Assembly: GCF_900104965.1 (NCBI RefSeq)
Contig: NZ_LT629757.1
Location: 1,302,001-1,366,000 of the forward strand
Direction of reading: 5' to 3'
Origin: Nocardioides scoriae
GTDB taxonomy: Bacteria; Actinomycetota; Actinomycetes; Propionibacteriales; Nocardioidaceae
DNA length: 64,000 bases
The notes beneath the pieces were generated by a model. It ran no database searches and was not told the origin of the DNA. It saw only the letters and a list, made by a program, of their open reading frames with translations. A program made the translations under genes and the position numbers. Below are positions 7,118 through 25,188 of this stretch, piece after piece. Positions within the stretch are counted from its first letter, which is position 1, and each line of letters begins with the position of its first letter.

Positions 7118-7938
7118 CGCGCCAGCGCCTTCTCCTGCCGGCGCCGGTTGACCTCGACGCCGACGACGATCGCCACCGAAATCAGGAACATCACGGTGCC
7201 GACCACGTTGACCTGCATCGGCACGCCGCGCTGGGCGACGCCCCAGACGTACATCGGGAACGTCGTGGTGTTGCCGGCGTTGAGGTTGGTGATGATGAAG
7301 TCGTCGAAGGACAGCGAGAACGACAGCAGCGCCGCGCCCAGGATGCCGGGGAACACCAGCGGCAGCGTCACCCGCCGGAAGGTCTGCGCCTCGGTCGCGT
7401 AGAGGTCCATGGCCGCCTGCTCGAGGTTGTCGTCGAGCCCCGCGAGCCGGGCCCGCACGGTGACGACCACGAAGGACAGGCAGAACATGATGTGGGCGAT
7501 GAGGATCGTCCAGAAGCCGAGCTTGCCGCCGAAGCCGCCGGCGACGAAGAGCGCCAGCAGCGAGGAGCCCATCACGATCTCGGGCGAGGCCATCGGCAGG
7601 AAGATGCCGAGGTTGGCGGCGCTGCGGCCGTGGAAGCGGTGGCGCACCAGCGCGAAGGCCATCAGGGTGCCGAGCGCCGTGGCGACCACGGTGGCGAGCA
7701 GGCCGATCTGGATGCTGCGGCTCAGCGCCCCGCACAGGCCGTCGGCGGCGCAGGGGTTGGCCCAGTTGTCCAGGGTGAAGGCGTCGAAGCGGTAGATCAG
7801 CCGGCTGTCGGGCTTGTTGAAGCTCATCAGGACCACGACGAAGATCGGCACGAACATGTAGAGCAGCACGAGCAGGCCGCCGGCCATCACGAGGTGAGAG
7901 CCGACCCACCGGCCGAGCCGTTGCAGGGGGCCGTTCAC
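7114..7938 (-). CDS. potC: Spermidine/putrescine-type ABC transporter permease PotC
   Basis: 274 residues with six predicted membrane helices and the binding-protein-dependent permease EAA-type loop (EQAAMDLYATEAQTFRRVTLPLVFPGI) typical of the second polyamine permease. The FDDFIITN segment is characteristic of PotC. The GTG start overlaps the potB stop (GTGA), and its own stop overlaps the following oxidase. It forms the membrane channel with PotB and is energised by PotA. Uptake of putrescine or spermidine is the likely function by family and by the adjacent amine oxidases. Confidence 0.9.
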   Translation of the reverse strand: MNGPLQRLGRWVGSHLVMAGGLLVLLYMFVPIFVVVLMSFNKPDSRLIYRFDAFTLDNWANPCAADGLCGALSRSIQIGLLATVVATALGTLMAFALVRHRFHGRSAANLGIFLPMASPEIVMGSSLLALFVAGGFGGKLGFWTILIAHIMFCLSFVVVTVRARLAGLDDNLEQAAMDLYATEAQTFRRVTLPLVFPGILGAALLSFSLSFDDFIITNLNAGNTTTFPMYVWGVAQRGVPMQVNVVGTVMFLISVAIVVGVEVNRRRQEKALAR

Positions 7939-8849
7939 AGCAGCTCCTCCGTCCCCGCGCGACGGACGTAGAGCAGCACCATCGCGAGGATCAGCAGCAT
8001 CAGGATCACCGAGAGCGCCCCGGCGACCGGGTAGTCGCCCGCGTCGGTGAACAGGTTCTGGATGACGTTGCCGATCATCCGCTGGCCGGGGCTGCCGAGC
8101 AGCTGGGCGTTGATGTAGTCGCCGACCGCCGGGATGAAGGTGAGCAGCGTGCCGGACACCACCCCGGGCAGCGACAGCGGCCAGGTCACCTTGAGGAAGC
8201 CCACGACGGGGCGCGAGTAGAGGTCGCCCGCGGCCTCGATCAGGCGGTGGTCGATCTTGTCGATGCTGGCGTAGAGCGGCAGCACCATGAACGGCAGGAA
8301 GTTGTAGACCAGGCCCGCGACCACGGCCACCGGGGTGGCCAGCAGGCGGCCGTCGGAGCCGAGCACGTGCAGGAACTGCAGCGTGTTGACCACGACGCCG
8401 TCGTCGCGCAGCAGCAGCTTCCACGACAGCGTGCGCACCAGGAAGCTGGTGAAGAACGGCGCGATCACCAGGATCAGCATCAGGTTCTTCCAGCGGCCCG
8501 CCTTGAAGGCGATGGCGTAGGCCAGGACGTAGCCGAGCACGAGGCAGATGGCCGTGGCGACGGCGCCGTACAGCAGCGAGCGCACCAGCGGGCGCCAGTA
8601 CTCCTGCAGCGCGGTCGCGTAGTTGCCGAACGCCCACGTCATGTCGAAGCCCTCGAGCACCGACCCGTTCGGGTCGTAGAGGCTGGTCGCGACCAGGGAG
8701 TAGAACGGGACGACGAAGAAGACCAGCAGCCACAGCGCGCCCGGCAGCAGCAGCCAGTAGCCGGTCAGGTCGCGCCGCTCCCGGTGGCGCGTGGCGGGCG
8801 GGTCCGCGGGTGCGCTCGCCGGGGCCTCGCGCGTCGCCGTCGCCGTCAC
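7935..8849 (-). CDS. potB: Spermidine/putrescine-type ABC transporter permease PotB
   Basis: 304 residues. A short Ala/Pro-rich N terminus is followed by YWLLLPGALWLLVFFVVPFYSLV, the typical first helix of PotB, and a permease EAA loop (IEAAGDLYSRPVVGFLKVTWPLSLPGV). About six membrane helices are visible. The start is a GTG that overlaps the stop of potA (GTGA), and the stop overlaps potC in the same way, so potA-potB-potC are translationally coupled. A much longer open frame through 9008 was rejected because it would run inside potA. Confidence 0.9.
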   Translation of the reverse strand: MTATATREAPASAPADPPATRHRERRDLTGYWLLLPGALWLLVFFVVPFYSLVATSLYDPNGSVLEGFDMTWAFGNYATALQEYWRPLVRSLLYGAVATAICLVLGYVLAYAIAFKAGRWKNLMLILVIAPFFTSFLVRTLSWKLLLRDDGVVVNTLQFLHVLGSDGRLLATPVAVVAGLVYNFLPFMVLPLYASIDKIDHRLIEAAGDLYSRPVVGFLKVTWPLSLPGVVSGTLLTFIPAVGDYINAQLLGSPGQRMIGNVIQNLFTDAGDYPVAGALSVILMLLILAMVLLYVRRAGTEELL

Positions 8850-10030
8850 AGCACCAGGTCCGAGCGGTCGACGCCGGCCGAGGCGTCCTGGGAGTGGTCG
8901 AGCAGGAAGGCGTACTCCGGTCGCCACGACACGTCGACCTGCTCGCCGGTGCGGAACAGCCGGCGGCGGCCGGTGTTCTGCTCGAAGACCTGGAGCTCCT
9001 GGCCCCACGGCATCCGCACGAGGTACTGGGTCGAGACGCCGACGAAGCTGACGTCGGTGATCGTGCCGCCCGGGATGCTGTTGCCCGGCGCGTCGATGAC
9101 CTCGCCGACCTCGCCGATCAGCACCTTCTCGGGGCGCACGCCGACCCAGCCCTTCTCCCCCGGCGTGCCCGTGACGTGCGCCCGGGCGGACGGGATCGAG
9201 ACGATCGTGCCCTGCATGTCGACCTTGACGAAGTCGCCGTCGCGGCCCTTGATCTCGCCCTCGATGAGGTTGGACTGACCGAGGAAGTTGGCCACGAAGG
9301 TGGTGCGGGGGTTCTCGTAGAGCTCGGCCGGGGCGCCCATCTGCTCGATGCGCCCGGCGTTCATCACCGCGATGGTGTCGGCCATGGTCATGGCCTCCTC
9401 CTGGTCGTGGGTGACGTGGACGAAGGTGAGTCCGACCTCGGTCTGGATCCGCTTGATCTCGATCTGCATGGCGCGGCGCAGCTTGAGGTCGAGCGCGCCC
9501 AGCGGCTCGTCGAGCAGCAGCACCTCGGGGCTGTTGATGAGCGCCCGGGCCAGCGCGACGCGCTGCTGCTGGCCACCGGAGAGCTGGGCGGGCCGCTTGC
9601 GGGCCTGGGTCTGCAGCTCCACCAGCTCGAGCATGTCGTTGACCGCCTGGTCGACCTCCTTGCGCCGGCGACGGCGCAGGCCGAAGGCGACGTTCTCGAA
9701 GATGTCGAGGTGGGGGAACAGCGCGTAGTTCTGGAACACGGTGTTGACCGGGCGCCGGTAGGGCTTGTCCCAGGTGATCTCCTTGTCCCCCAGCACGATG
9801 CTGCCCGAGGTCGGGGTCTCCAGGCCGGCCACCATCCGCAGCGTCGTGGTCTTGCCGCAGCCCGAGGGGCCGAGCAGCGCGAAGAACGACCCGCTGGGGA
9901 TGTCGAGGTCCAGGGACTGCACCGCGGTGAAGCTGGCGAACTCCTTGGTCAGCGACCGCAGGTGGAGCCCGCTGCCGGAGGCGTGGCCACCGGTGTCGGG
10001 GTGCGTCGGGGCTTCAGCCACCTGTGACAT
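8846..10030 (-). CDS. potA: Polyamine ABC transporter ATPase PotA
   Basis: 394 residues. Domains in order: an ATPase with Walker A GPSGCGKTT, Q-loop, signature LSGGQQQRVALARA, Walker B LLLDEPLGALD and the switch histidine in HVTHDQEEA; then a C-terminal TOBE-like regulatory region from about residue 290. It couples ATP hydrolysis to import through PotBC. The ATG at 10030 lies 16 nt inside the end of the potD gene but has a strong AAGGAGAG site about eight bases upstream, so this overlapping start is preferred. Its stop overlaps potB. Confidence 0.93.
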   Translation of the reverse strand: MSQVAEAPTHPDTGGHASGSGLHLRSLTKEFASFTAVQSLDLDIPSGSFFALLGPSGCGKTTTLRMVAGLETPTSGSIVLGDKEITWDKPYRRPVNTVFQNYALFPHLDIFENVAFGLRRRRRKEVDQAVNDMLELVELQTQARKRPAQLSGGQQQRVALARALINSPEVLLLDEPLGALDLKLRRAMQIEIKRIQTEVGLTFVHVTHDQEEAMTMADTIAVMNAGRIEQMGAPAELYENPRTTFVANFLGQSNLIEGEIKGRDGDFVKVDMQGTIVSIPSARAHVTGTPGEKGWVGVRPEKVLIGEVGEVIDAPGNSIPGGTITDVSFVGVSTQYLVRMPWGQELQVFEQNTGRRRLFRTGEQVDVSWRPEYAFLLDHSQDASAGVDRSDLVL

Positions 10031-11201
10031 CGGACCACTCTCCTTCGTACTTCTTGTTCTGGTTCTCGTCGAGCGCCATGAAGTCGAACGTGTCCTTCAG
10101 GTCTTCCTCGGTGGGGAAGATCAGCCGGTTGTCGACCAGCGAGCTGTCGATCTTCTCCATGGCCTCGCGGGCACCCTCGACGGGGCAGATGTAGTTGACC
10201 CAGGCCGCGAGCTTCGCGGCCACCTCGGGCTCGTAGTAGTAGTTGATCCACTGCTCGGCGTTGTCGAGGTGCTGGGCCTTGTTCGGCACCAGCATGTTGT
10301 CGCTCCAGAGGTTGAGGCCCTCCTCCGGCACGACGAACTTGATGTCGGGGTTCTCGAACTGCGCCTGGATGACGTCGCCGGACCACGCCTCGCAGGCCAC
10401 GATGTTGCCGGCGGTGAGGTCCTGGATGTACTCGTTGCCGGTGAAGGCGCGGACCTGGCCGCCGCGCACCACCGTGCCGAGGTAGTCGATCCCGCGCTCC
10501 CACTCGGTGTCGCCGAACTTCTCCGGGTCGGCGCCGGTCACCTTCAGCACGAAGGCCATGGTGTCGCGCATCTCGGAGAGCAGCGTGATCTTGCCCTTGA
10601 GGTCGGGGCGGGTCAGCAGCGCCTCGAAGCTGCCGACCTCCTTGGTCAGCTTGGCGTTGTAGGCGATGCCGGTCAGGCCGCTCTGCCAGGGAGCGGAGTA
10701 CGTCCGGTCGGGGTCCCAGGCGCGGTCCCGCAGGGCCGGGATCAGGTTCTGGTGGAGGTTGGGGACCTTGTCCTTGTCGAGCGGCTGGCACCAGCCCAGG
10801 TTGATCATCCGGGCGGCCATCCAGTCGGTGAGCACCATGAGGTCGCGGTCGACGGACTGGCAGGCGCTCAGCTGGTTGCGGACCTTGGCGAAGAACTCCG
10901 CGTTGTCGCTGACGTCGTCGGTGTAGTCGACGCTGATGCCGGTCAGCTGCTCGAAGTCCTTCAGGGTCGTGACGTACTTCTTCGCCGGCGGGTCGATGTA
11001 GGCCGGCCAGTTGGACACGACCAGCTTCTTGGCGCTGGCCGAGACGTCCTTGGCCTTGCACGTCATCGGGTCCTGGACGGCGCCGTTGGTGCCGAAGAGC
11101 GGCAGCACGGCGGCGGACCCGATGGCGAAGGCGCCGAAGCCTCCGGCCTTGAGGAACGTACGCCGGGACGGGCCGGTCGGTCCTGGTGGGGCAGGTGTCA
11201 C
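10014..11201 (-). CDS. potD: Polyamine-binding protein PotD, Tat-exported
   Basis: 395 residues, a periplasmic-type spermidine/putrescine-binding protein. The N terminus has a twin-arginine motif (SRRTFLKAGG) and a hydrophobic segment, so export is probably by Tat rather than Sec. Binding-protein features include LVVSNWPAYIDP, DYTDDVSDNAEFFAK and WINYYYEPEVAAKLAAWVNYICPVEGA. The GTG at 11201 has a GAGGAGG site about seven bases before it; the longer frame to 11276 lacks support. First gene of the potDABC-oxidase operon; its 3' end overlaps potA by 17 nt. Confidence 0.92.
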   Translation of the reverse strand: MTPAPPGPTGPSRRTFLKAGGFGAFAIGSAAVLPLFGTNGAVQDPMTCKAKDVSASAKKLVVSNWPAYIDPPAKKYVTTLKDFEQLTGISVDYTDDVSDNAEFFAKVRNQLSACQSVDRDLMVLTDWMAARMINLGWCQPLDKDKVPNLHQNLIPALRDRAWDPDRTYSAPWQSGLTGIAYNAKLTKEVGSFEALLTRPDLKGKITLLSEMRDTMAFVLKVTGADPEKFGDTEWERGIDYLGTVVRGGQVRAFTGNEYIQDLTAGNIVACEAWSGDVIQAQFENPDIKFVVPEEGLNLWSDNMLVPNKAQHLDNAEQWINYYYEPEVAAKLAAWVNYICPVEGAREAMEKIDSSLVDNRLIFPTEEDLKDTFDFMALDENQNKKYEGEWSDVTGG

Positions 11202-11365
11202 GGGGCCTCCTCGATCTCGCGGCACACGATCACACGACACCGGCCGCTGTGACAAGGGATTCCGTTGCCACGACACATGATTGCCACGGAAACGTCATAT
11301 TCGGAGGCTCCCGGACACGAAATGAGGGGTGCCGCGCTTGCCAGGCGCCGTCCCGGGCGGACACC
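11202..11365. promoter_or_regulatory. Divergent control region between potD operon and Lrp gene
   Basis: The gap holds the promoters of both divergent units. A direct repeat TTGCCACG occurs at 11265-11272 and 11281-11288, a 16-nt period, inside a looser inverted arrangement TTCCG...CGGAA (11260-11290). These are good candidates for binding by the neighbouring Lrp-type regulators, which often recognise repeated, phased sites. I cannot assign a -35/-10 pair with confidence. Confidence 0.45.
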
Positions 11366-11851
11366 ATGGCGCCCATGACGGACAGGTCCCAGGCGCGCGG
11401 CAACGGCCTCCTCGACGACGTCTCGAAGTCGATCATCGAGCAGCTGCAGCAGGACGGCCGCCGCTCGTACGCCGCCATCGGCAAGGCCGTGGGCCTCTCG
11501 GAGGCGGCCGTGCGGCAGCGGGTGCAGCGCCTCACCGAGGCCGGCGTGATGCAGATCGTGGCCGTGACCGATCCGCTGCAGCTCGGCTTCGGCCGCCAGG
11601 CGATGGTCGGGATCCACGTGGACGGCGCGGTGCAGCCGGTCGCGGACGCGCTGGCGCAGATGGAGGAGGTCATCTACGTCGTCATGACCGCCGGCGGCTA
11701 CGACGTGCTGTGCGAGGTGGTCAGCGCCAGCGACGAGGAGCTGCTCGACCTGGTCGCCCGCCGGATGCGCGCGGTCGAGGGCGTGCGCTCGACGGAGACC
11801 TTCATGTACCTCAAGCTCGCGAAGCAGACCTACTCGTGGGGCGTGCGCTGA
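11366..11851 (+). CDS. Lrp/AsnC-family transcriptional regulator
   Basis: 161 residues. An N-terminal winged helix-turn-helix (IIEQLQQDGRRSYAAIGKAVGLSEAAVRQRVQRLTEAGVMQI) is followed by the alpha/beta RAM ligand-binding domain ending LVARRMRAVEGVRSTETFMYLKLAKQTYSWGVR. It faces the potDABC operon and precedes an amine oxidase by two bases, so it probably controls polyamine import and breakdown. ATG 11366 has GGGCGG five bases upstream; ATG 11375 is an alternative. A close paralogue lies at 13294. Lrp proteins of this class usually respond to an amino acid or amine, but the ligand is not evident. Confidence 0.88.
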   Translation: MAPMTDRSQARGNGLLDDVSKSIIEQLQQDGRRSYAAIGKAVGLSEAAVRQRVQRLTEAGVMQIVAVTDPLQLGFGRQAMVGIHVDGAVQPVADALAQMEEVIYVVMTAGGYDVLCEVVSASDEELLDLVARRMRAVEGVRSTETFMYLKLAKQTYSWGVR

Positions 11852-11853
11852 GC

Positions 11854-13248
11854 ATGAGCGGCTACGCCTCCCTCTCGCTGTGGCACGCCACCGCCGGCGA
11901 CGACGACCTGACCCCGCGTGCCCCGCTCGCCGGTGACGCCGACCACGACGTCGCGATCGTCGGGGCCGGCCTGACCGGGCTGTGGACCGCCTACTACCTG
12001 CGTCGCGCCGACCCCACCCTGCGCGTGGTGGTGCTCGAGCAGGAGATCGCCGGCTTCGGCGCCTCGGGGCGCAACGGCGGCTGGTGCAGCGCGCTCTTCC
12101 CGACCTCGTGGAGCCGCCTGGTCCAGGCGGGCGGCGAGGACGGCGCGCTGCGCCAGCACCGCGCCATGCAGGAGACCGTCCGCGAGGTCGGCCGCGTCGT
12201 GGCCCGCGAGGGCATCGAGGCCGGCTTCCACCAGGGCGGCACGGTCACCCTGGCCCGCACCTCGGTGCAGCTCGAGCGCCTCGCCGCGGACGTCGCCACC
12301 GCGCACGCCCGCGGGCTCGGCGAGGACGACGAGCGGCTGCTGGACGCCGCCGAGGCGAGCGCCGTGCTCGCGGCCGACGGCGTCGTGGGCGGCACCTTCA
12401 CGCCGCACTGCGCCGCGGTCCACCCCGCCCGACTGGTGCGCGGGCTCGCCCGCGTCGTCGAGGCCGCCGGCGTCCACCTCGTGGAGCAGACCCGGGTGCT
12501 GCGGATCGCGCCCGGCCGCGTCGAGACCGAGCACGGCACCGTGCGCGCCGCCCACGTCATCCGGGCGACGGAGGGGTTCACGCCCTCCCTGGAGGGCCAC
12601 GCCCGCGATGTCGTGCCCGTCTACTCCCTCATGGTCGCGACCGAGCCCCTCGACGAGGCCACCTGGGACCGCATCGGGCTCTCCGACCGGCCGACCTTCA
12701 CCGACGGCCGCCACCTGATCATCTACGGCCAGCGCACCGCCGACGGGCGGCTGGCCTTCGGCGGCCGGGGCGCGCCGTACCACTTCGGCAGCCGCGTCCA
12801 CCCGTCGTACGACGCGGAGCCGCGCGTGTTCGCCGACCTCGAGCGCACCCTGCGCCAGCTGCTCCCCCAGCTGGGCGACGAGAGCTCCGGGGTCCGGTTC
12901 AGCCACCGCTGGGGCGGCCCGCTGGCGATCGCCCGCGACTGGGCCGCCTCGGTGGGCCTGGACCGCTCGACCGGGCTCGGGTGGGCCGGGGGCTACGTCG
13001 GCGACGGCGTCTCGACCACCAACCTGGCCGGACGCACGCTGGCCGACCTCGTCACCGGGGCCGACAGCGACCTGGTCCACCTGCCCTGGGTGCAGCACCG
13101 CAGCCCGCGCTGGGAGCCCGAGCCGCTGCGCTGGCTCGGCATCAACGCCGGCCTCCGGGCGATGACCCTCGCCGACGCCGAGGAGGCCCGCACCGGGCGC
13201 AGCAGCCGGCTGGCACGCCTCATGGCGCCCCTGACCGGCGGCCACTGA
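11854..13248 (+). CDS. FAD-dependent amine oxidoreductase, second PuuB-type paralogue
   Basis: 464 residues. N-terminal FAD motif VAIVGAGLTGLWTAYYL, then FGASGRNGGWCSALFP, a substrate-domain region, and GWAGGYVGDGVSTTNLAGRTLADLV near the C terminus, the same architecture as the oxidase at 5693. It follows the Lrp gene after only two bases and is very likely co-transcribed with it. The shared ASGRNGG motif and context suggest oxidation of gamma-glutamyl-polyamines or a related secondary amine. Sequence differences from the first copy, especially in the middle domain, suggest a different substrate. Confidence 0.85.
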   Translation: MSGYASLSLWHATAGDDDLTPRAPLAGDADHDVAIVGAGLTGLWTAYYLRRADPTLRVVVLEQEIAGFGASGRNGGWCSALFPTSWSRLVQAGGEDGALRQHRAMQETVREVGRVVAREGIEAGFHQGGTVTLARTSVQLERLAADVATAHARGLGEDDERLLDAAEASAVLAADGVVGGTFTPHCAAVHPARLVRGLARVVEAAGVHLVEQTRVLRIAPGRVETEHGTVRAAHVIRATEGFTPSLEGHARDVVPVYSLMVATEPLDEATWDRIGLSDRPTFTDGRHLIIYGQRTADGRLAFGGRGAPYHFGSRVHPSYDAEPRVFADLERTLRQLLPQLGDESSGVRFSHRWGGPLAIARDWAASVGLDRSTGLGWAGGYVGDGVSTTNLAGRTLADLVTGADSDLVHLPWVQHRSPRWEPEPLRWLGINAGLRAMTLADAEEARTGRSSRLARLMAPLTGGH

Positions 13249-13293
13249 GCCAATCTCCGGGCGGTCCTGCCACGCGGGTGGGAGACTCCTCCC

Positions 13294-13812
13294 GTGATCA
13301 AGGGTGAGCTGCCGAGCGCCGGGGGTCCTCCCCCCGGCCCGGCCGCGACGCGCCCGGCGCCGGCGCGCATGGACCCGGCCAGCAAGGCGATCGTGGGGCT
13401 GCTGCAGCAGGACGGCCGTCGCCCGTACGCCGAGATCGGTGAGGAGCTCGGGCTCACCAGGGCCGAGGTCGAGCACCGGGTGCGCCGCCTCGTCGACGCC
13501 GGCGTCATGCAGATCACCGCGGTCACCGACCCCCTCCAGCTGGGGTTCGCCCGCCAGGCCATGCTCGGCCTCACCGTCGAGGGCGTGCCGGCCAAGCTGG
13601 TCGCCGAGCAGGTCTCGGAGATCCCCGAGGTGTCCTACGTCGTGCTCACCGCGGGCGGCTTCGACCTGCTCGTCGAGGTGGTCGGCAACAGCGACGCCCA
13701 CCTGCTCGAGCTGGTCTCGGCCTCGATCAAGCCGATCGCCGGGGTGAAGGCGATCCACACCTTCCTCTACCTCGAGCTGCAGAAGCAGACCTACACGTGG
13801 GGCGTGCGCTGA
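13294..13812 (+). CDS. Lrp/AsnC-family regulator, paralogue of the 11366 gene
   Basis: 172 residues. Helix-turn-helix IVGLLQQDGRRPYAEIGEELGLTRAEVEHRVRRLVDAGVMQI, then a RAM domain ending LELQKQTYTWGVR. It is strikingly similar to the other Lrp (AGVMQI-AVTDPLQLGF-RQAM and the KQTY-WGVR tail are shared), so it arose by duplication. The GTG at 13294 has GAGACT six bases upstream and may be leaderless; the Pro/Ala-rich first 25 residues are poorly constrained, and ATG 13369 is a possible alternative. It converges with the acyl-CoA ligase, six bases between stops. Confidence 0.87.
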   Translation: MIKGELPSAGGPPPGPAATRPAPARMDPASKAIVGLLQQDGRRPYAEIGEELGLTRAEVEHRVRRLVDAGVMQITAVTDPLQLGFARQAMLGLTVEGVPAKLVAEQVSEIPEVSYVVLTAGGFDLLVEVVGNSDAHLLELVSASIKPIAGVKAIHTFLYLELQKQTYTWGVR

Positions 13813-15622: not shown

Positions 15623-17437
15623 GTGACTGCTGCCACCTCGGACCCCGACTTCACCACCCGCCCGACCCTCACCGGCACCTTCGGCATGGTGTCCTCCACC
15701 CACTGGCTGGCCTCCCAGGCCGCGATGCGGATGCTCGAGCTGGGCGGCAACGCCTTCGACGCCGCGGTGGCGGGCGGCTTCGTCCTCCACGTCGTCGAGC
15801 CGCACCTCAACGGCCCCGGTGGCGACCTGCCGGCCGTCGTGGCCACGGCCGCCGACCCGCGCCCGCGGGTGCTGTGCGGCCAGGGCCCGGCCCCGGCGGC
15901 GGCCACGCCCGAGGCGTTCGCGGCGATGGGCCTCGACCACGTGCCGGGGTCCGGACCGGTGGCGGCCTGCGTGCCGGGCGCCGTCGACGCCTGGCTGCTG
16001 CTGCTGCGCGACCACGGGACGCTGCCGCTGGCGGCGGTGCTGGAGCCGGCCATCGGCTACGCCCGCGACGGCCACCCGCTGCTGCCCCGGGTGGCGGCCA
16101 CGATCGAGCGGGTGCGCGGGCTCTTCGAGCAGGACTGGCCGACCTCGGCCGAGCTGTGGCTGCCCGGCGGCCGGGTCCCCGCGGCCGGCGAGCTGTTCGC
16201 CAACCCGGCGTACGCCGCGGTGCTGGAGCGGCTGGTCGCGACCGGCACGGCCGCCGGCACCGAGGTGGCCACCCAGGCCGAGGCCGCCCGCCGCGAGTGG
16301 GCCCACGGGTTCGTCGCCGAGGCGGTCGAGGCCGCCGCCGAGCAGCCCCGCCACTCCGGCCACCCCGGGCTGGTGCGCGGCAGCGACCTGGCGGCGTACG
16401 CCGCGGGCTGGGAGGACGCGACCACCGCGACCTGGCACGGCGTCGAGGTGGCCAAGATCGGGCTGTGGGGCCAGGGTCCCGCCCTGCTCCAGGTGCTGGC
16501 GATGCTCGACGTGCTGGCCGCCGAGCACGGCCCCGACGTGCTCGACCCCGACACCGAGCTCGGCATCCACTGCGTGACCGAGACCTGGAAGCTGGCCATG
16601 GCCGACCGCGAGGCGTGGTTCGGCGAGGCCTCCCCCGTCACGCCCGAGCAGCTCCTCGACCCGGCGTACGTCGCCGCGCGGGCCGCGCTGGTCGGCGAGA
16701 CGGCCGACCTCGGGCTGCGCCCCGGGTCCCCCGGCGGCCACGAGCCGCGGCTGGCCGCGCACGTGCACCGGCTGCTGGCCGGCGAGGACACCGGGCGTGC
16801 GGCCGACGTCACCACCGGCGAGCCCACCGTCGAGCGCGACGGCACCACCCGCGGCGACACCTGCCACCTCGACGTCGTCGACCGCTGGGGCAACCTCGTC
16901 TCCGCGACCCCCAGCGGCGGCTGGCTGCAGAGCTCGCCCACGATCCCCGGGCTGGGCTTCTGCCTGGGCAGCCGGGCCCAGATGTTCTGGCTCGACGAGG
17001 GCCTGCCCGCCTCGCTGGCGCCGGGCGCGCGGCCCCGCACCACCCTCACCCCCACCCTGGTGCTGCGCGACGGCGAGCCGGTGCTGGCGTGCGGCTCGCC
17101 CGGCGGCGACCAGCAGGACCAGTGGCAGACGCTGTTCCTGCTGCGCCACGTCGTCGGCGGGAAGAGCCTGCAGCAGGCGATCGACGCCCCGATGTTCCAC
17201 ACCGACTCCTTCCCGGGCTCCTTCCACCCCCGCGAGATGCAGCCGGGGTCGCTGACCGTCGAGGCGCGCGTCGGCGCCGACGTGGTCGAGGGCCTGCGCC
17301 GCCGGGGCCACGTCGTCACCACCGCGGGCCCGTGGTCGCTGGGCCGGATGTGCGCGGTCACGCGCGACCCCGCCACCGGCCTGCTGGCGGCCGGGGCGAA
17401 CCCGCGCGGGATGCAGGGCTACGCGGTGGGCCGGTGA
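15623..17437 (+). CDS. Gamma-glutamyltransferase-family protein (Ntn hydrolase)
   Basis: 604 residues. The GGT fold is clear: N-terminal GMVSSTHWLASQAAMRMLELGGNAFDAAVA, a FVLHVVEPHLNGPGGD segment, and the autocleavage site with catalytic threonine at about residue 413 in GDTCHLDVVDRWGN, followed by the oxyanion/substrate loop. GGTs hydrolyse or transfer gamma-glutamyl groups; this cytoplasm-type copy has no signal peptide, so glutathione-conjugate, gamma-glutamyl-amide or cephalosporin-acylase-like roles are all possible. TAGGGT at 15610-15615 followed by seven bases and GTG indicates a leaderless start at 15623. Its stop overlaps the start of the LacI gene. Confidence 0.85.
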   Translation: MTAATSDPDFTTRPTLTGTFGMVSSTHWLASQAAMRMLELGGNAFDAAVAGGFVLHVVEPHLNGPGGDLPAVVATAADPRPRVLCGQGPAPAAATPEAFAAMGLDHVPGSGPVAACVPGAVDAWLLLLRDHGTLPLAAVLEPAIGYARDGHPLLPRVAATIERVRGLFEQDWPTSAELWLPGGRVPAAGELFANPAYAAVLERLVATGTAAGTEVATQAEAARREWAHGFVAEAVEAAAEQPRHSGHPGLVRGSDLAAYAAGWEDATTATWHGVEVAKIGLWGQGPALLQVLAMLDVLAAEHGPDVLDPDTELGIHCVTETWKLAMADREAWFGEASPVTPEQLLDPAYVAARAALVGETADLGLRPGSPGGHEPRLAAHVHRLLAGEDTGRAADVTTGEPTVERDGTTRGDTCHLDVVDRWGNLVSATPSGGWLQSSPTIPGLGFCLGSRAQMFWLDEGLPASLAPGARPRTTLTPTLVLRDGEPVLACGSPGGDQQDQWQTLFLLRHVVGGKSLQQAIDAPMFHTDSFPGSFHPREMQPGSLTVEARVGADVVEGLRRRGHVVTTAGPWSLGRMCAVTRDPATGLLAAGANPRGMQGYAVGR

Positions 17438-18456
17438 CCCCCGTCCCCGAGGGCTCCCGGGTCACCCTCGAGGACGTCGCCCGGCACGCCGGGGTCTCGC
17501 GCGCCCTGGTCTCGATCGTGATGCGGGGCGCCAAGGGGGCGGGCGAGCAGACCCGCGCCCGGGTGCTGGCCGCGGCCGACGAGCTGGGCTACCGACCCGA
17601 CGTGCGCGCCCGGGCGCTCGCGGGCCAGCGCTCCCGGCTGATCGGCGTCACCTTCGGCGTCGCGGGCAGCTTCCACTTCGACCTCCTCGAGGGGCTGTAC
17701 GCCGCCGCCCGCGACCACGGCCACGAGCTCGTGCTGAGCGCCCTGACCCGCGGGCGCGACGAGCAGGCGGCCGTGCTCTCGCTGCAGGACTTCCGCTTCG
17801 ACGCGCTCGTGATGCTCGCCCCGCAGACCCCCGCCCCGCTGCTGGCCGGCACCGTGCCGGTCGTGGTCGTGGGCTGGCAGGTCGACGACCCCCGCGTCGA
17901 CGTCGTCCGCACCTCCGACACCTCGGCCCTCGACCAGGCGGTCGACCACCTCGTGGGGCTCGGCCACCGCGACGTCGTCCACCTCGACGGCGGGTCCGGC
18001 CTGGTCGCGGCCTCGCGACGGTCGGCGTACGCCGCGGCGATGGCGCGCCACGGCCTGGAGCGGCACGCGCGCGTCGTGAGCGGCGGCGAGACCCAGCTCG
18101 ACGGCATGCGGGCCGCCCGCGAGCTGATCGCGGGTCCGCTGCCCACGGCCGTGGTCGCCTACAACGACGACGTGGCCGTCGCCGCGCAGGGCGTGCTCGC
18201 CCAGCACGGCGTCGACGTGCCGGGCCGGGTCTCGGTCGTGGGCCTCGACGGCCAGGAGGTCTCCGGCCTGTCGCCCCGGGTGCTCACCACGCTGGTGCAG
18301 GACCCGGTCGCCCTGGCCCGGGCCGCGATCGAGCGGGCCGTGGCCCGCGCGGAGGCGGCGCCCGGCCCCGGCGGGCCGGACGGAGGCCGCGAGCTGGTGC
18401 TCGAGCCCGTCCTGCGGGTCGGCGGCACCACCGCCGCTCCCCCGCCGCACCCGTAG
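17434..18456 (+). CDS. LacI-family transcriptional regulator
   Basis: 340 residues. N-terminal LacI helix-turn-helix and hinge: VTLEDVARHAGVSRALVSIVMRG through ADELGYRPDVRARALAGQRS, then a periplasmic-binding-protein-like effector domain (RLIGVTFGVAGSFHFDLLEGLY; SVVGLDGQE). The GTG start overlaps the GGT stop (GTGA), so the two are co-translated. A perfect 14-nt LacI-type operator lies 45 bases downstream of its stop in the promoter of the P450 fusion gene, making that gene the most probable target. Effector unknown; LacI members usually bind sugars, but nothing else here is a sugar gene. Confidence 0.9.
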   Translation: MTPVPEGSRVTLEDVARHAGVSRALVSIVMRGAKGAGEQTRARVLAAADELGYRPDVRARALAGQRSRLIGVTFGVAGSFHFDLLEGLYAAARDHGHELVLSALTRGRDEQAAVLSLQDFRFDALVMLAPQTPAPLLAGTVPVVVVGWQVDDPRVDVVRTSDTSALDQAVDHLVGLGHRDVVHLDGGSGLVAASRRSAYAAAMARHGLERHARVVSGGETQLDGMRAARELIAGPLPTAVVAYNDDVAVAAQGVLAQHGVDVPGRVSVVGLDGQEVSGLSPRVLTTLVQDPVALARAAIERAVARAEAAPGPGGPDGGRELVLEPVLRVGGTTAAPPPHP

Positions 18457-18465
18457 CCCCGGTCG

Positions 18466-18495
18466 TTGACACCGCCTCGGGGCGGCTCCTACGCT
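18466..18495 (+). promoter_or_regulatory. Sigma-70-type promoter for the P450 fusion gene
   Basis: A consensus -35 TTGACA (18466-18471) and a -10 TACGCT (18490-18495) are separated by 18 bases. The predicted start is at about 18502, inside the operator palindrome. This is one of the few strong, canonical promoters in the window. Confidence 0.7.
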
Positions 18496-18500
18496 CCCTG

Positions 18501-18514
18501 CTAGAGCGCTCTAG
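18501..18514. promoter_or_regulatory. LacI-type operator, 14-nt perfect palindrome
   Basis: CTAGAGCGCTCTAG is a perfect palindrome with the central CG typical of LacI-family operators (GAGCGCTC core). It begins five bases after the -10 and covers the predicted transcription start, an arrangement expected for repression. The LacI gene ends 44 bases upstream. Confidence 0.75.
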
Positions 18515-18527
18515 TCAGGAGACCCGC

Positions 18528-20768
18528 ATGGCCCTCGCCCCCGCCCGGACCTGGGAGTACGACCCCTTCGCCCCGGGGTTCTACGACCACGCCTTCGACA
18601 CCTACCGGCTGATGCGCGACCAGGCGCCGGTCTACCGCAGCGAGAAGTGGGGCTGGTACGCCCTGACCCGCTTCGAGGACGTCCGGGCGGTGCTGACCGA
18701 CCCCGACACCTACCGCTCCTTCGAGGGCATGGACATCGACGACACCGAGCAGGACCAGGCCGGCCCGGGCTCGCTGCCCAACATGGACAACCCGCGCCAC
18801 GACGAGATCCGCCGGATCGTGCAGCCGTGGTTCCTGCCCCGGCGGGTCGGTGCCCACGAGGACGCCGTCCGGGCGGTCGTGCGCCGGCTGCTGGCCGGCG
18901 TCGAGGCGAACGGTCGCGCCACCGGGCGCGCCGACCTGGCCCGCGACCTCGCCTGGCCGCTGCCCTTCGACGTGTTCTTCAGCCTGATGGGGTTCCCCGA
19001 CGCCGCGGACCAGGGCCGCGCCCAGCTGGAGCGGTGGATGCACGAGCAGAAGGGCCGGGTCGCGGGCACGCCGCACCTGACGCCCGCGGCCACCTGTGCG
19101 ACCGCCCGGATCAACGAGTTCTTCGTCGAGGTCCTCGAGCAGCGCCGCCGCCAGCCGCAGCAGGACCTGGTCTCCCACCTGGTGCGGGCCGACATCGACG
19201 GCGTGCCCTTCGCCGACGAGCACATCACCCCCACCTCCGAGGTGCTCGGGCTGATGATGGTGCTCTTCCTGGGCGGCGTGGAGTCGACGGCCGGCCTCAC
19301 CGCGACGATGTTCAAGCTGCTCGCCGAGCACCCCGACCAGCGCGCGCTGCTGGTCGCCGACCCCTCGCTGGTGCCGGTCGCCGTCGAGGAGACCCTGCGG
19401 ATGGCCACGCCGCTGCAGCTGACGGCCCGCACCACCTCGCGCGAGGTGGTGCTCCACGGCACCACCATCCCCCGGGGCGCCCGGGTCGTCGCCGTCACCG
19501 GTGCCGCCAACCGCGACGAGCGCGCCTTCGAGCGGCCCGACGCGTTCGACCTCACCCGCGGCCGCGTGCGCCACCTCGGCTTCGGCGAGGGCGTCCACGG
19601 CTGCCTCGGCGCCCACCTGGCCCGCCTCGAGGCCACGGTCGCGCTCCAGGAGGCGCTGCCGGTGCTCGGCGACTACGCCCTCGACGGCGCTCCGGGGTTC
19701 TACCCGAGCTCGCCCAACATGTACTGCTGGGCCTCGCTGCCCGTGCGGCTCGGCCCTCGGGCCGCCGACCTGTCGACCCCCCGGCCGACCACCGAGCCGG
19801 TCACCGCACCGGCCGCACCGCACGCCGAGCGGCTGACCGCGGTCCGCGTGGTGGCCAAGGAGCCGGCCGCCGACGCCGTGGTCGCGCTCACGCTGGAGCC
19901 CGTCGGCGACGACCTCCCCGGCTGGGGTCCCGGCGCCCACGTCGACCTGGTCCTCGGCGACGACGTGGCCACGCGGCAGTACTCCCTGTGCGGCGACCCG
20001 GCCGACCCGTCGTCGTACCGCCTCGGCGTGCTGCGCGACGACGCCGGCCGCGGCAGCTCGCGCCACGTCCACGACCGGCTCGAGGTCGGCGACGTCGTCG
20101 CGGTCCGCGGCCCGCGCCAGCACTTCGCGCTGCAGCCGGCGGCGTCGTACCTCTTCGTCGCGGGGGGCATCGGCATCACTCCGCTGCTGCCGATGGTCGC
20201 CGCCGCGGAGGCCGCGGGCGCCGACTGGCGGCTGGTGTACGGCGGCCGCACGCGCTCGTCGATGGCCTTCCTCGACGAGCTGGCGGCGTACGGCGACCGC
20301 GTGGCCGTGCGCCCGCAGGACGAGCACGGCCTGCTCGACCTGCCCGCCCTGCTGCACGAGCCGGCGCCCGGCACGCTGGTCTACTGCTGCGGTCCCGAGG
20401 CGCTGCTCGACGCGGTGGAGCAGCACTCGCGGCACTGGCCCCCGAGCACCCTGCACGTCGAGCGGTTCGCGCCCCGCACCCCGACCGCCCCGGTCCGCGA
20501 CACCGCCTTCGAGGTGGTGCTGCGCCGCAGCGGGCTGGTGCTGGAGGTGCCGCCGGAGCGGTCGGTGCTCGAGGTCGTCGAGGCGGCCGGCGTGCCCACG
20601 CAGTCGTCGTGCGCCGAGGGCACCTGCGGGTCGTGCGAGACGCGGGTGCTGACCGGACGGCCCGACCACCGCGACTCCGTGCTCGACGCCGCCGAGCGCG
20701 AGCGGGGCGACTGCCTGATGATCTGCGTCTCGCGCTCGTGCGACCCGCAGCTCGTGCTCGACCTCTGA
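18528..20768 (+). CDS. Self-sufficient cytochrome P450 fused to FMN/[2Fe-2S] reductase (CYP116B-like)
   Basis: 746 residues in three modules. Residues 1-405: P450 with an I-helix GGVEST, an ExxR motif (E288/R291) and heme ligand Cys359 in FGEGVHGCLG. About 425-640: phthalate-dioxygenase-reductase-like unit with the flavin motif RQYSLCG and the nicotinamide motif GGIGITPLLPM. C terminus: plant-type ferredoxin with Cys695, Cys700, Cys703 and Cys733. The order matches class VII (CYP116B/P450-RhF) enzymes, which hydroxylate or dealkylate small substrates using NAD(P)H without partner proteins. All key residues are present. ATG 18528 has AGGAGA about seven bases before it. Likely repressed by the adjacent LacI protein. 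Substrate unknown. Confidence 0.92.
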   Translation: MALAPARTWEYDPFAPGFYDHAFDTYRLMRDQAPVYRSEKWGWYALTRFEDVRAVLTDPDTYRSFEGMDIDDTEQDQAGPGSLPNMDNPRHDEIRRIVQPWFLPRRVGAHEDAVRAVVRRLLAGVEANGRATGRADLARDLAWPLPFDVFFSLMGFPDAADQGRAQLERWMHEQKGRVAGTPHLTPAATCATARINEFFVEVLEQRRRQPQQDLVSHLVRADIDGVPFADEHITPTSEVLGLMMVLFLGGVESTAGLTATMFKLLAEHPDQRALLVADPSLVPVAVEETLRMATPLQLTARTTSREVVLHGTTIPRGARVVAVTGAANRDERAFERPDAFDLTRGRVRHLGFGEGVHGCLGAHLARLEATVALQEALPVLGDYALDGAPGFYPSSPNMYCWASLPVRLGPRAADLSTPRPTTEPVTAPAAPHAERLTAVRVVAKEPAADAVVALTLEPVGDDLPGWGPGAHVDLVLGDDVATRQYSLCGDPADPSSYRLGVLRDDAGRGSSRHVHDRLEVGDVVAVRGPRQHFALQPAASYLFVAGGIGITPLLPMVAAAEAAGADWRLVYGGRTRSSMAFLDELAAYGDRVAVRPQDEHGLLDLPALLHEPAPGTLVYCCGPEALLDAVEQHSRHWPPSTLHVERFAPRTPTAPVRDTAFEVVLRRSGLVLEVPPERSVLEVVEAAGVPTQSSCAEGTCGSCETRVLTGRPDHRDSVLDAAERERGDCLMICVSRSCDPQLVLDL

Positions 20769-20878: not shown

Positions 20879-21705
20879 TCAGGCGGGAGCCCTGCCCGGG
20901 GTCTCCTCGAGGGTCGTGGCGCCGGTCATGATCGCCACCGCCTCGTTGGGGGTGTGGCTCTTCGGGGTGATGACGCCGGCGCAGCGCCCGAGCCGCTGGA
21001 TGTGGATCCGGTCGGCCACCTCGAACACGTTGGGCATGTTGTGGCTGATGAGGATGACCGGCAGGCCGCTCTCGCGCACCCGGTTGATCATGTTGAGCAC
21101 CTGGTTGGTCTCCTTGACGCCCAGCGCCGCCGTCGGCTCGTCGAGCACGATCAGCTTCTTGGCGAAGGCCGCGGCACGGGCCACGGCGACCGCCTGGCGC
21201 TGGCCACCGGAGAGCGTCTCCACGGGCTGCGACATGTTCTGCAGGGTGCCGATGCCGAGGTCCGACATCGACTGGCCGGCACTGTCGCGCATGCCCTTGT
21301 GGTCGAGCATGCGGAAGATCGAGCCGAGCGGGCCCGAGCGCCGCATCTCGCGGCCCAGGAACATGTTGGCCGCGATGTCGAGGGCCGGCGCCACCGCGAG
21401 GGTCTGGTAGACCGTCTCGATGCCGGCCTCGCGGGCCTCCTGGGGACGCTTGAAGTTGACGACCTCGCCGTCGAGGCGGACCTCGCCGGCGTCCGGCACG
21501 ATGGCCCCGGTCGCCGCCTTGATGAGGGTCGACTTGCCGGCGCCGTTGTCGCCGATGATCGCGAGGACCTCGCCCGGGTAGAGGTCGAAGTCGACGCCGT
21601 CCAGGCCGACGACGCGGCCGAAGGTCTTGACCAGGCCCCTCGCGGAGAGGACCGGCGTGCGTCCGTCGTTGCTGGTGGTGTGGCCGGTCTCGGCCGTCGT
21701 GGCGG

Positions 21706-21709
<4 letters not shown>
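20879..21709 (-). CDS. Sugar ABC transporter ATPase (FrcA-like, CUT2 family)
   Basis: 276 residues with one ATPase domain: Walker A GDNGAGKST, signature LSGGQRQAVAVARA, Walker B LIVLDEPTAALG and switch His in ILISHNM. Most CUT2 transporters (RbsA type) use a tandem double ATPase of about 500 residues; the single-domain form with the order binding protein-permease-ATPase resembles the FrcBCA fructose/mannose/ribose system. The ATG overlaps the permease stop (ATGA). It ends the operon, followed by a bidirectional hairpin. Confidence 0.88.
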
Positions 21710-22761
<1,052 letters not shown>

Positions 22762-22788
22762 GGCTCTTCCTCCTTGGCCGTTGGTGAA

Positions 22789-22840
22789 CGCAGCAGTGGC
22801 CCGGGCCTCCGGAGACCGTGGGCTCCGGGCCACTGCTGCG
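22789..22840 (-). terminator. Intercistronic hairpin between binding-protein and permease genes
   Basis: A perfect 16-bp stem (CGCAGCAGTGGCCCGG at 22789-22804 with its complement at 22825-22840) and a 20-nt loop. It lies 26 bases after the binding-protein gene and ends before the permease ribosome-binding site. Such hairpins after ABC binding-protein genes act as partial terminators or 3' stabilisers that raise binding-protein yield over the membrane subunits. Confidence 0.7.
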
Positions 22841-22866
22841 CTGGTGCGGGTCAGACGTGCGGGGTC

Positions 22867-23943
22867 TCAGCCCCAGCAGATCTTGGCGGCCTCGGTGGTG
22901 TCGATGGAGTCGACGCCGTCGGCCGGGGTGTCGGTGACGAGCGCGACACCGGTGTCGAAGAAGTCCAGGCCCTCGCTGGGCTTGGGGGCCTCGCCGCCGT
23001 CGGCGATCTTCTTGATCGCCTCCACACCGAGCTCGGCCATCTTCACGGGGTACTGCTGCGAGGTGGCACCGATGACGCCGTTCTTGACCTGGTCGACGCC
23101 GTCGCAGCCGCCGTCGATCGAGGAGATGAGCGCGCCCTGGACGCCGGCCTGCTTCAGCGCGCCGTTGGCGCCGACAGCCGCGGGCTCGTTGATCGTGTAG
23201 ACGACGTTGATGTCCTTGTTCTTGGACAGGCAGTTCTCCATGGCCGTGCGGCCACCGTCCTCGGAGCCCTGGGTGGGCTCGTTGCAGACGATCTCGTAGT
23301 CGCCGCCGTCGTAGCTGCCGGTGGCGTCCTCGTCACCGTTCTTCTTCTTGTCCTTGGTGTCGATCCCCATGCCGGTCAGGAAGCCCTGGTCGCGGTTGTA
23401 GTCGACCGAGACGATCTTGTCGTTGAACAGGTCGAGCATGGCGATGGTCGCCTTCTCGCCCTTCAGCTGGGTCTTGGTCCACTCGCCGATCAGCTCGCCG
23501 GCCTTGAAGTTGTCGGTGGCGAAGGTGATGTCGACCGTGTCGGCCGGGTCGGGCGGGGTGTCGAGGGCGATGACGTAGAGGCCCGCGTCGCGCGCCTTCT
23601 TGATCGCCGGGTTGACGCCCGGGCCGTTGGGGGTGATGAGGATGCCCTGGTCGCCGTTGGCGATGGCGTTCTCGATGGCCTGGATCTGGCCCTGCTCGTC
23701 GCCGTCCTCCTTGCCGGCCGCGATGGACAGCTTGACGCCGTCCTTCTTGGCGGCCGTCTTGGCGCCCTCCTGCATGGCGACGAAGAACGGGTTGACCGAG
23801 TCCTTGGTGATGAGCGTGACCGCGGTGTCGCCGGAGTCGCCGCTGCCGCTGCCTCCGCCGCTGCCGCAGGCCGTGAGCGCCATGGTGGCCACACCGAAGG
23901 CGGCGACGACCGCTGCGCGCCGGCCTCTCGTGATGTTGAGCAT
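22867..23943 (-). CDS. Sugar-binding lipoprotein of CUT2 ABC transporter (FrcB-like)
   Basis: 358 residues. Signal peptide with a lipobox LTAC at about residues 23-26, then a Gly/Ser linker and a type I periplasmic-binding fold: VTLITKDSVNPFFVAMQEGAK, ENAIANGDQGILITPNGPGVNP, GYVIALDTPP-like strand and DPAD segment. It captures a pentose or hexose outside the membrane and delivers it to the permease. First gene of the operon, divergent from a LacI gene. ATG 23943 has AAAGG about nine bases upstream. Two cysteines (EIVCNEP, MENCLS) may form a disulfide. Confidence 0.92.
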   Translation of the reverse strand: MLNITRGRRAAVVAAFGVATMALTACGSGGGSGSGDSGDTAVTLITKDSVNPFFVAMQEGAKTAAKKDGVKLSIAAGKEDGDEQGQIQAIENAIANGDQGILITPNGPGVNPAIKKARDAGLYVIALDTPPDPADTVDITFATDNFKAGELIGEWTKTQLKGEKATIAMLDLFNDKIVSVDYNRDQGFLTGMGIDTKDKKKNGDEDATGSYDGGDYEIVCNEPTQGSEDGGRTAMENCLSKNKDINVVYTINEPAAVGANGALKQAGVQGALISSIDGGCDGVDQVKNGVIGATSQQYPVKMAELGVEAIKKIADGGEAPKPSEGLDFFDTGVALVTDTPADGVDSIDTTEAAKICWG

Positions 23944-23996
23944 CTGGTTCTACCTTTCGACTGCAACGTCCCCGCAGGTGGCTCCTGACCGGTGGT

Positions 23997-24008
23997 GACA
24001 ACGTTGTC
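23997..24008. promoter_or_regulatory. LacI-type operator at the sugar-ABC promoter
   Basis: GACAACGTTGTC is a perfect 12-nt palindrome with a central CG step. On the minus strand it follows a TTGACA (24046-24041)-17 nt-CAGAGT (24023-24018) promoter and overlaps the expected start site of the binding-protein transcript, a repressing position for the divergent LacI regulator. Confidence 0.75.
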
Positions 24009-24017
24009 TGCTGCGGT

Positions 24018-24046: not shown

Positions 24047-24064
24047 GGGTCACAGCCCACTCTT

Positions 24065-24076
24065 GACAACGATGTC
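24065..24076. promoter_or_regulatory. Second LacI-type half-matched operator near the regulator's own promoter
   Basis: GACAACGATGTC differs at one position from a perfect palindrome and shares GACAACG-TGTC with the site at 23997. It overlaps a TTGACA (24063-24068) facing the LacI gene, so it probably mediates autoregulation. The two sites are 68 bases apart centre to centre, a distance that would allow looping. Confidence 0.6.
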
Positions 24077-24126
24077 AGGGATCTGGTCCAGTCCAGGTCG
24101 TGTCGGTCGCCGAGGGGAGGTTCCAT

Positions 24127-25188
24127 ATGTCAGGACATTCAGACATGATGCCGGCCCGTCGTGCGCCGGAGCGCGCCACGATGCACGACGTGGCCCGACG
24201 CGCCGAGGTCTCGATCAAGACGGTCTCGCGCGTGGTCAACGGCGAGCCGGGGGTCTCCGAGGCCCTCGCGACCCGGGTCCGGACCGCCGTCCAGGAGCTG
24301 GGCTACCGCCACAACCTCGCGGCGAGCAACCTGCGGCGCGGCCAGCGGACCGCCTCCATCGGCGTGCTGGTCGACGACCTGGGCAACGCCTTCTGCAGCG
24401 AGGTGCTGCGCGCGATCGAGGACCGCGCCCGCGGCCGCGGCATCGTGCTGCTCGCCTCCAGCACCGACGAGGACGTCGACCGCGAGCGCGAGCTCATCGA
24501 CGGCCTGCTCTCGCGCCGCATCGACGGCATGATCGTGATGCCGACCGGGCGCGACCAGCGCCACCTCACCGTCGAGCACGCCGACGGGGTGCCCGTGGTG
24601 ACCGTGGACCGCCGGCCGGCCGACCCCGGCATCGACGGCGTCGTGGTCGACAACGCCGGTGGGGCCCGCACGGCCGTCGCCCACCTCCTCGCCCACGGCC
24701 ACCGCCGCATCGGGATCCTCGGCGACGCCAGCGACATCGTCACCGCCCTGGAGCGGCGCGACGGCTACCGCCGGGCGCTCGCCGACGCGGGCCTGCCCCA
24801 CGACCCCGCCCTGGAGCGCCTCGGCGCCCGCACCCGGGAGGAGGCGTCCGCCCACGCCACCGAGCTGCTCGCGCTCGCCGATCCCCCGACGGCGTTCTTC
24901 GCCGCCCGCAACGTGCTGTGCACCGGGGTCGTCGACGCGCTGCGGCGGCAGGGGCGCTCCCACGAGGTCGGCCTGGTCGGCTTCGACGACGTGCCGCTCG
25001 CCGAGCTCCTCGACCCCCCGGTCACCGTCATCCGCCAGGACACCCGCGCCATCGGCGAGCAGGCGATGGACCTGCTGCTCGCGCGGCTCGACGGCGACCA
25101 GGGACCCGGTCGCGTCGTGGACCTGCCCACCGAGCTGGTCGTGCGCGGGTCCGGCGAGATCCCGGCGCCCGCGGTCGACCGCGGCTGA
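24127..25188 (+). CDS. LacI-family regulator of the divergent sugar ABC operon
   Basis: 353 residues. DNA-binding part TMHDVARRAEVSIKTVSRVVNGEPGVSE...ELGYRHNLAASNLRRG, then the effector domain (IGVLVDDLGNAFCSEVLRAIED; VGLVGFDDVPLAELLDPPVTVIRQD). The ATG at 24127 follows GGGGAGG with six bases of spacing, favouring it over GTG 24100. Two matching palindromes in the intergenic region and the divergent sugar transporter indicate that it represses sugar uptake until the sugar binds. It converges with the AlkA-like gene. Confidence 0.9.
   Translation: MSGHSDMMPARRAPERATMHDVARRAEVSIKTVSRVVNGEPGVSEALATRVRTAVQELGYRHNLAASNLRRGQRTASIGVLVDDLGNAFCSEVLRAIEDRARGRGIVLLASSTDEDVDRERELIDGLLSRRIDGMIVMPTGRDQRHLTVEHADGVPVVTVDRRPADPGIDGVVVDNAGGARTAVAHLLAHGHRRIGILGDASDIVTALERRDGYRRALADAGLPHDPALERLGARTREEASAHATELLALADPPTAFFAARNVLCTGVVDALRRQGRSHEVGLVGFDDVPLAELLDPPVTVIRQDTRAIGEQAMDLLLARLDGDQGPGRVVDLPTELVVRGSGEIPAPAVDRG

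Follow-up and report, generated by a model that had tools for sequence, protein, structure and literature searches.

A 64,000-nucleotide stretch of the Nocardioides scoriae genome (contig NZ_LT629757.1, positions 1,302,001 to 1,366,000 of the forward strand; hereafter the window) encodes a self-sufficient cytochrome P450 fusion and, upstream of it, a LacI-family regulator. The perfect palindrome CTAGAGCGCTCTAG lies between the two genes and is very probably the site at which the regulator acts. Regulator gene and palindrome recur with the P450 gene in relatives, many of which carry it among genes of inositol catabolism (iol genes). From the conservation of gene and site, the gene context and the domain make-up we infer repressor binding, effector, substrate and reaction. 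Controlled by LacI, the P450 would remove O-methyl groups from methylated cyclitols such as pinitol and ononitol; for this full statement the case is evenly balanced.

The LacI protein would bind the palindrome at the likely transcription start of the P450 gene, repress it, and be released on the appearance of an inositol-type effector (a cyclitol). NAD(P)H would supply the electrons, and FMN and then the [2Fe-2S] domain would relay them to the heme. There a methyl-inositol would be hydroxylated at its methyl ether, with loss of the methyl group as formaldehyde (oxidative O-demethylation). The freed inositol, D-chiro-inositol in the case of D-pinitol, would be oxidised by IolG-type dehydrogenases and feed the iol pathway.

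LacI gene, predicted operator and promoter

The regulator carries both domains of the LacI family: a LacI helix-turn-helix (49.7 bits, cut-off 27) and a Peripla_BP_3 sensor (89.6 bits, cut-off 26.5). The arrangement given in the preliminary description holds. The palindrome is perfect at 18501-18514, the LacI gene ends 44 bases before it, and the LacI gene is coupled to a gamma-glutamyltransferase (GGT)-like gene through a 4-base overlap (GTGA) between the GGT stop and its own GTG start at 17434; this coupling is seen in the window genome only. The site is an even palindrome with a central CG, upstream of its target, as expected of a LacI-type operator. It has no other match at up to 2 mismatches in the 4.06-Mb single-contig genome. 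An equally good CG-centred 14-mer palindrome occurs in the 150 bp before the start in 15 of 1000 dinucleotide shuffles (P = 0.015). Such single-site evidence is modest, and the relatives must therefore decide. In passages of PMC4052901, even LacI motifs are 16-22 nt long and mostly CG-centred, with most sites between 140 and 30 bp upstream of the start codon; CTAGAGCGCTCTAG is therefore short and close to the start.

A consensus promoter, TTGACA and TACGCT with an 18-base spacer, had been described. The TTGACA half stands as perfect. TACGCT shares no more than 3 of its 6 bases with TATAAT, and no promoter is reported by a scan requiring 4 of 6 matches. TACGCT fits the relaxed actinobacterial -10 form TAnnnT. 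TTGACA starts 29 bases before the operator in seven Geodermatophilaceae loci and 28 bases before it in one (8 of the 19 relatives scanned). An inverted repeat, CCGCC-TCGG-GGCGG at 18472-18485, occupies most of the spacer.

Twenty-five loci are counted, obtained by a contig scan and searches of related genomes: the window, L004, L032-L048, L061 and L129-L133. Same-genome duplicates (L003, L005) and five more distant loci (L006-L008, which are about 40-44% identical, L049 and L057) are left out. Genes in the flanks were called with a simple codon-usage caller. Counted as an operator is a CG-centred 14-mer palindrome that has no more than one mismatched pair and lies 200 bp or less from the P450 operon head. 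The heads of L041, L045, L061, L130 and L131, and of L133, which has no site, were picked by hand. The site counted in L036 differs from the one that aligns with its kin (2 mismatched pairs), and that in L004 is the LacI-proximal one of two.

In 21 of the 25 loci the P450 gene has a LacI homologue next to it or close by; the Paracoccus locus L043, with two LacI-like open reading frames (ORFs) seen by eye only, is not among the 21. An operator is present at the operon head in 22 of the 25 loci, as against 6 of 99 control intergenic regions (9/102 before three regions that are themselves P450 operon heads were dropped). When the search is confined to the 150 bp preceding the P450 gene, a perfect site is present in 9 of 20 rows, and a site with no more than one mismatched pair in 15 of 20. 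Loss of the palindrome from orthologous P450 promoters had been named in advance as the outcome that would speak against LacI; the site is kept at the rate just given and is identical in L131. A chance palindrome is rejected by the shuffles together with this conservation. Co-conservation of LacI, operator and P450 had been named as the outcome that would support it, and the three are found conserved together. The GGT-like gene has no match of at least 60 bits beside the P450 in 26 loci, some with short flanks, a search made outside L129-L133.

L131 belongs to another genus of the window's family and groups with the window and L129 in the tree (support 100/99). Its LacI protein is 61% identical to that of the window, with the same recognition segment (SRALVSIVMR) and the identical 14-bp site. 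There CTAGAGCGCTCTAG heads an operon of an IolG-like gene (7323-8348), a TIM-barrel gene (8345-9124) and the P450 gene (9154-11367). L041 (Pseudonocardia) has an L131-like gene order with TTAGCACGTGCTAA at the operon head. L130 has LacI, binding-protein and P450 genes in this order, with TTGGAGCGCTCCAG before the binding-protein gene. In L048 the segment is SKSLVSLVLR, and ATGGAGCGCTCCAT occurs twice, before the P450 gene and before an importer binding-protein gene divergent from LacI. Seven of nine Geodermatophilaceae loci (L033-L040, L044) have two LacI genes round the P450 gene; the second is not seen in L035 and L036. The first regulator has P/T-A-T-VSLVLR, with a TTGAAGCGCTTCAA-like site at the P450 promoter and a TTAAAGCGCTTTAA-like site in its own upstream region. 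The second has TALVSIVMR, with mostly paired CTAGAACGTTCTAG-type sites before an IolG-like gene; some sites of these loci carry one mismatch. Operator and recognition helix change together, which is comparative evidence for LacI binding, not proof. LacI control of the P450, as first proposed, is well supported by the retained sites and by the identical site before the L131 operon.

The P450 fusion

The window protein has class VII architecture: a P450, an FMN/NAD reductase and a C-terminal [2Fe-2S] ferredoxin. Heme Cys359 (FGEGVHGC) and ferredoxin Cys695/700/703/733 are where they had been placed and are invariant across an alignment of 29 sequences including that of the window. Binding of FMN is expected from homology to 2pia, 6kbh and 6laa. 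The closest solved full-length chains, 6kbh and 6laa, are also the only ones of the 50 top Foldseek matches to span the whole fusion. Modelled with AlphaFold2 (pTM 0.57, mean pLDDT 83; linker residues 412-433 of low confidence), the protein takes the form of a normal P450 and reductase. The nearest metagenome proteins (P0001-P0003) are 78-83% identical.

CYP family membership takes about 40% or more identity in the P450 domain. The heme domain is identical to 6kbh, a CYP116B, at 114 of 390 residues (29%; residues 7-396), and membership of CYP116 is ruled out on this value; 6laa was aligned alongside, and identities were counted for 6kbh. By its sequence, the window P450 represents a family of its own that has the layout of class VII. 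The CYP116B enzymes known from this class (P450 RhF, OhpA, CYP116B46) share the order P450, FMN/NAD reductase, [2Fe-2S] domain with it, and the reductase part is 44% identical to 6kbh. They differ in the heme domain, in context (inositol genes for the window type) and in their native role, hydroxylation of 2-hydroxyphenylacetate according to passages of PMC8449657 and PMC11889516. The expectation that the regulator would inform on the natural substrate is borne out in that the neighbours in relatives point to inositol catabolism; its extension to the known class VII enzymes as one substrate class is not supported, given the 29% heme-domain identity and a native CYP116B substrate already published (passages of PMC8449657).

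Asp69 and Asp71 are invariant in the presumed substrate-recognition site (SRS) 1. PLQ and PN motifs are common to the main clade in presumed SRS5 and SRS6, with slight variation in SRS6, and are lacking or varied in the group of L043, L132 and L133; all SRS labels are by analogy. These features are at most compatible with a polar ligand.

In three loci (L045:7998-10234, L046:4194-6448, L061:7998-10243) P450 and reductase are called as two genes with a 4-base overlap. These loci group together (94/92) inside the fused clade, and the split therefore looks like fission of a fusion. The P450s of L043, L132 and L133 (44-46% identical) form a sister group without the usual I-helix motif (A/G)GxE(T/S)T and have STDAP or ATDAP instead. 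In L132 the distance to IolD is nevertheless 5 kb, and the palindrome CTAGCACGTGCTAG stands upstream.

Inositol gene context and proposed substrate

IolD over its cut-off lies within 20 kb of the P450 gene in 15 of 24 genomes, and far away on the same replicon in 2. Flank clustering and scans of representatives find, near the P450, Gfo/Idh/MocA dehydrogenases (scoring best as IolG), xylose-isomerase-type TIM barrels including IolE-like ones, MMSDH/IolA, IolD, MFS or ABC sugar importers and LacI genes. Neighbours score 713 bits for MMSDH/IolA (over cut-off), 302 and 393 for IolG, and 131 and 145 for IolE. Among solved chains, the IolG-like protein of L131 matches an unnamed dehydrogenase best, then inositol dehydrogenases. 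In L048, L061, L131 and Pseudonocardia, importer binding proteins encoded no further than about 8 kb from the P450 gene score best with the model for binding of rhizopine (3-O-methyl-scyllo-inosamine), at 144-190 bits against 32-55 for the next model.

In the window's family the P450 is found in 8 of 341 genomes at E <= 1e-150 and IolD in 80 at the same level (77 of them pass the family cut-off). All 8 genomes with the P450 have IolD, as against 72 of the 333 others (Fisher 7e-6, uncorrected for phylogeny). Three P450 candidates per genome were scored for this count, and near-complete scoring agrees for the genus (2/24). The genes are ordered differently in the loci of Nocardioidaceae, Pseudonocardiaceae and Geodermatophilaceae, which makes it probable that linkage arose or was retained on more than one occasion.

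The TIM-barrel partner is not taken for IolI: among solved structures it is related to ketose 3-epimerases and to proteins resembling hydroxypyruvate isomerase, and IolI is absent among 26 matches. The inosose-isomerase step is for this reason omitted from the claim. TIM332 has a single PDB match. A family of PhyH-type (Fe/2-oxoglutarate) oxygenases, assigned by a Pfam scan of the L042 member, recurs in L035-L038, L040-L042, L044, L047, L118 and L131; it might be a second demethylase.

The window genome encodes IolB, IolC, IolD and MMSDH over cut-off, an IolE-like protein below it, and also an IolG-like one, about 297 kb from the P450 gene. Because of this distance, the substrate of the window enzyme is deduced from its relatives. 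In the tree the window P450 is sister to L129 and nested among iol-linked enzymes. The simplest reading is therefore that its ancestor was iol-linked and that the linkage was later lost.

Several results tell against methyl-cyclitol demethylation under LacI control. The 297 kb between the window P450 and iolD are exceeded in G161 (652 kb), and 7 of the 24 genomes have IolD on a different contig. Equivalog scores are below NCBIfam cut-offs except for MMSDH, IolB, IolC and IolD; the cut-off of the rhizopine-binding model is 420, above every score obtained near the P450. The TIM-barrel gene of the L131 operon is without a homologue at E <= 1e-50 in the window genome. The importer next to the window P450 is not orthologous to the iol-linked ones: compared with the importer that accompanies the Pseudonocardia P450, its ATPase is 41% and its permease 27% identical, and its binding protein is unmatched. 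LacI is not found by BLAST in L132 and L133, nor in L032 (a 9-kb contig), and the flank search gives no LacI match in L006-L008, L049 and L057, which lie outside the 25. The operator is not found in L032, L043 and L133. The loci are phylogenetically clustered, many being from Geodermatophilaceae, and P values are optimistic for this reason. The best fold matches (Foldseek, VIA) are steroid, fatty-acid, terpene and macrolide P450s and give no substrate hint; that a sugar P450 is not among them proves nothing. O-demethylation is proven by no structural or sequence feature of the fusion.

LacI control may be real and the substrate nevertheless be a polyol or sugar of inositol habitats other than methyl-inositol; candidates would be an amino-cyclitol and a sugar or sugar acid in methylated form. 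We regard this as unlikely. The Paracoccus P450 (L043, 46% identical) has IolD on other contigs only and stands among LacI-like ORFs and one sugar-acid-dehydratase-like ORF, recognised by eye; its importer binding protein nevertheless clusters with the rhizopine-type ones. PMC4052901 gives sugars as what LacI regulators mostly sense, and passages of PMC10033563 report demethylation of 6-O-methyl-D-galactose by a P450. In the closer clade, by contrast, the operon partners are IolG-like and many clusters include IolD, IolE and MMSDH.

The window P450 may alternatively have been re-purposed: severed from the iol cluster and placed behind the GGT-like gene, it would have a new substrate and its old regulator and site. 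Its distance from iolD, a GGT gene seen in no other locus searched, the missing TIM partner and an end branch of 0.47 (median 0.15), though not flagged as long, are in keeping with this. The recognition helix and operator identical to those of iol-linked L131, presumed substrate-recognition residues that match the iol-linked enzymes, an almost complete iol pathway in the same genome and the nested position in the tree make it improbable.

It is very improbable that the palindrome is not the operator of the adjacent LacI protein, the latter having another target or the site another regulator. The lone 14-bp site is matched at P = 0.015 in shuffles and has no second copy in the genome, which would allow this; its retention in 22 of 25 loci, the way site and recognition helix vary in step, and the two identical sites of L048 argue against it.

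Least likely is that the enzyme resembles CYP116B in function, as an aromatic hydroxylase or a P450 for xenobiotics (of the 2-hydroxyphenylacetate or the thiocarbamate type), and has its iol neighbours by chance: the domain layout and the best full-length matches (6kbh, 6laa) would suit it, whereas the 29% heme-domain identity, a different presumed SRS1 sequence and the recurrence of iol linkage in differently ordered clusters would not.

Neighbouring genes and known systems

Table 1. Features of the window around the P450 gene.
Feature	Position	Strand	Characteristics
Gamma-glutamyltransferase-like gene	15623..17437	+	Pfam G_glu_transpept; NCBIfam TIGR00066 below cut-off
LacI-family regulator	17434..18456	+	340 aa; recognition segment SRALVSIVMR; Pfam LacI, Peripla_BP_3 (scanned from 17437)
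-35-like hexamer TTGACA	18466..18471	+	Perfect; starts 35 bases before operator, 29 bases between
-10-like hexamer TACGCT	18490..18495	+	3/6 to TATAAT; 5 bases separate it from operator
Predicted LacI operator CTAGAGCGCTCTAG	18501..18514	.	Perfect 14-mer palindrome, CG-centred, 27 to 14 bases before ATG
Ribosome-binding-site-like AGGAGA	18517..18522	+	From sequence; 5 bases before ATG at 18528
P450 - phthalate-dioxygenase-reductase-type reductase - [2Fe-2S] ferredoxin fusion	18528..20768	+	746 aa; Pfam p450, NAD_binding_1, Fer2
Convergent sugar-type ABC importer (ATPase, permease, binding protein), own regulator	20879..23943	-	Pfam/profile matches
Second LacI-family gene, divergent from importer	24100..25188	+	Pfam; true start may be 24181; different recognition helix

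The convergent importer is not kept as part of the P450 unit, given the identities stated above and a binding protein without a match. The second LacI gene is likely its regulator. Two TGACAACG-type near-palindromes lie between importer and second LacI gene (23996-24009 and about 24064-24077) and are probably the operators of the second LacI protein itself. Positions 8846-13812 hold ABC genes of spermidine/putrescine type (equivalog scores under the NCBIfam cut-offs) together with genes for an Lrp/AsnC regulator and an FAD-dependent oxidoreductase, which suggests a polyamine or amine catabolic unit adjoining the GGT-like gene.

Rhizobial rhizopine catabolism (moc) resembles the proposed system in two respects: going by the title of Bahar 1998 (a reference of PMC10107442), it involves an oxygenase complex with ferredoxin as well as the pathway of inositol degradation, and the binding proteins found here score best with the rhizopine model. 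It differs in that mocDEF are separate genes and in that the regulator MocR has a GntR-type DNA-binding domain, not a LacI one, according to PMC5320631. In the portions of the moc literature examined, no statement of MocD as a P450 or demethylase is found. The marine 6-O-methyl-D-galactose P450 likewise removes a methyl ether from a polar carbohydrate, releases formaldehyde and belongs to a carbohydrate-use locus; it differs in its separate ferredoxin and reductase and in its substrate (likened by description only, from passages of PMC10033563). IpsA of Corynebacterium is a LacI-family protein with myo-inositol as effector and a tested palindromic site; it differs in activating inositol synthesis (likened by description only, from passages of PMC3899939). 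Seven LacI-type groups for inositol are listed among predicted regulators in passages of PMC4052901. No P450 is named as a target of LacI-type inositol regulators in the passages of PMC3899939 and PMC4052901. Among the matches listed in the literature searched directly (titles and abstracts, for instance the best 20 of 61, with most subscription papers outside), none pairs a P450 with methyl-inositol breakdown.

An undescribed family of self-sufficient P450s dedicated to methyl-cyclitol demethylation is tentatively proposed, on a judgement somewhat short of even. Working alongside a MocB-like importer, dehydrogenases of the IolG type and a LacI repressor whose effector is the cyclitol itself, it would open plant methyl-inositols (pinitol, ononitol and their kin) to soil actinobacteria. 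Production of O-methyl-inositols is widespread in legumes, as passages of PMC8730688 state.

Class VII-type fused P450s are prized catalysts with few native substrates known. The finding is more interesting than first stated, in that a definite class of substrates is reached by way of the regulator: the co-travelling regulator, operator, importers and pathway narrow the substrate search to one class of small polar methyl ethers. The Geodermatophilaceae clusters with two LacI genes and two palindromes are a natural data set for LacI-operator specificity. If the proposal is true, the family would provide a first step for the bacterial use of O-methyl-inositols, together with LacI sensors for such compounds.

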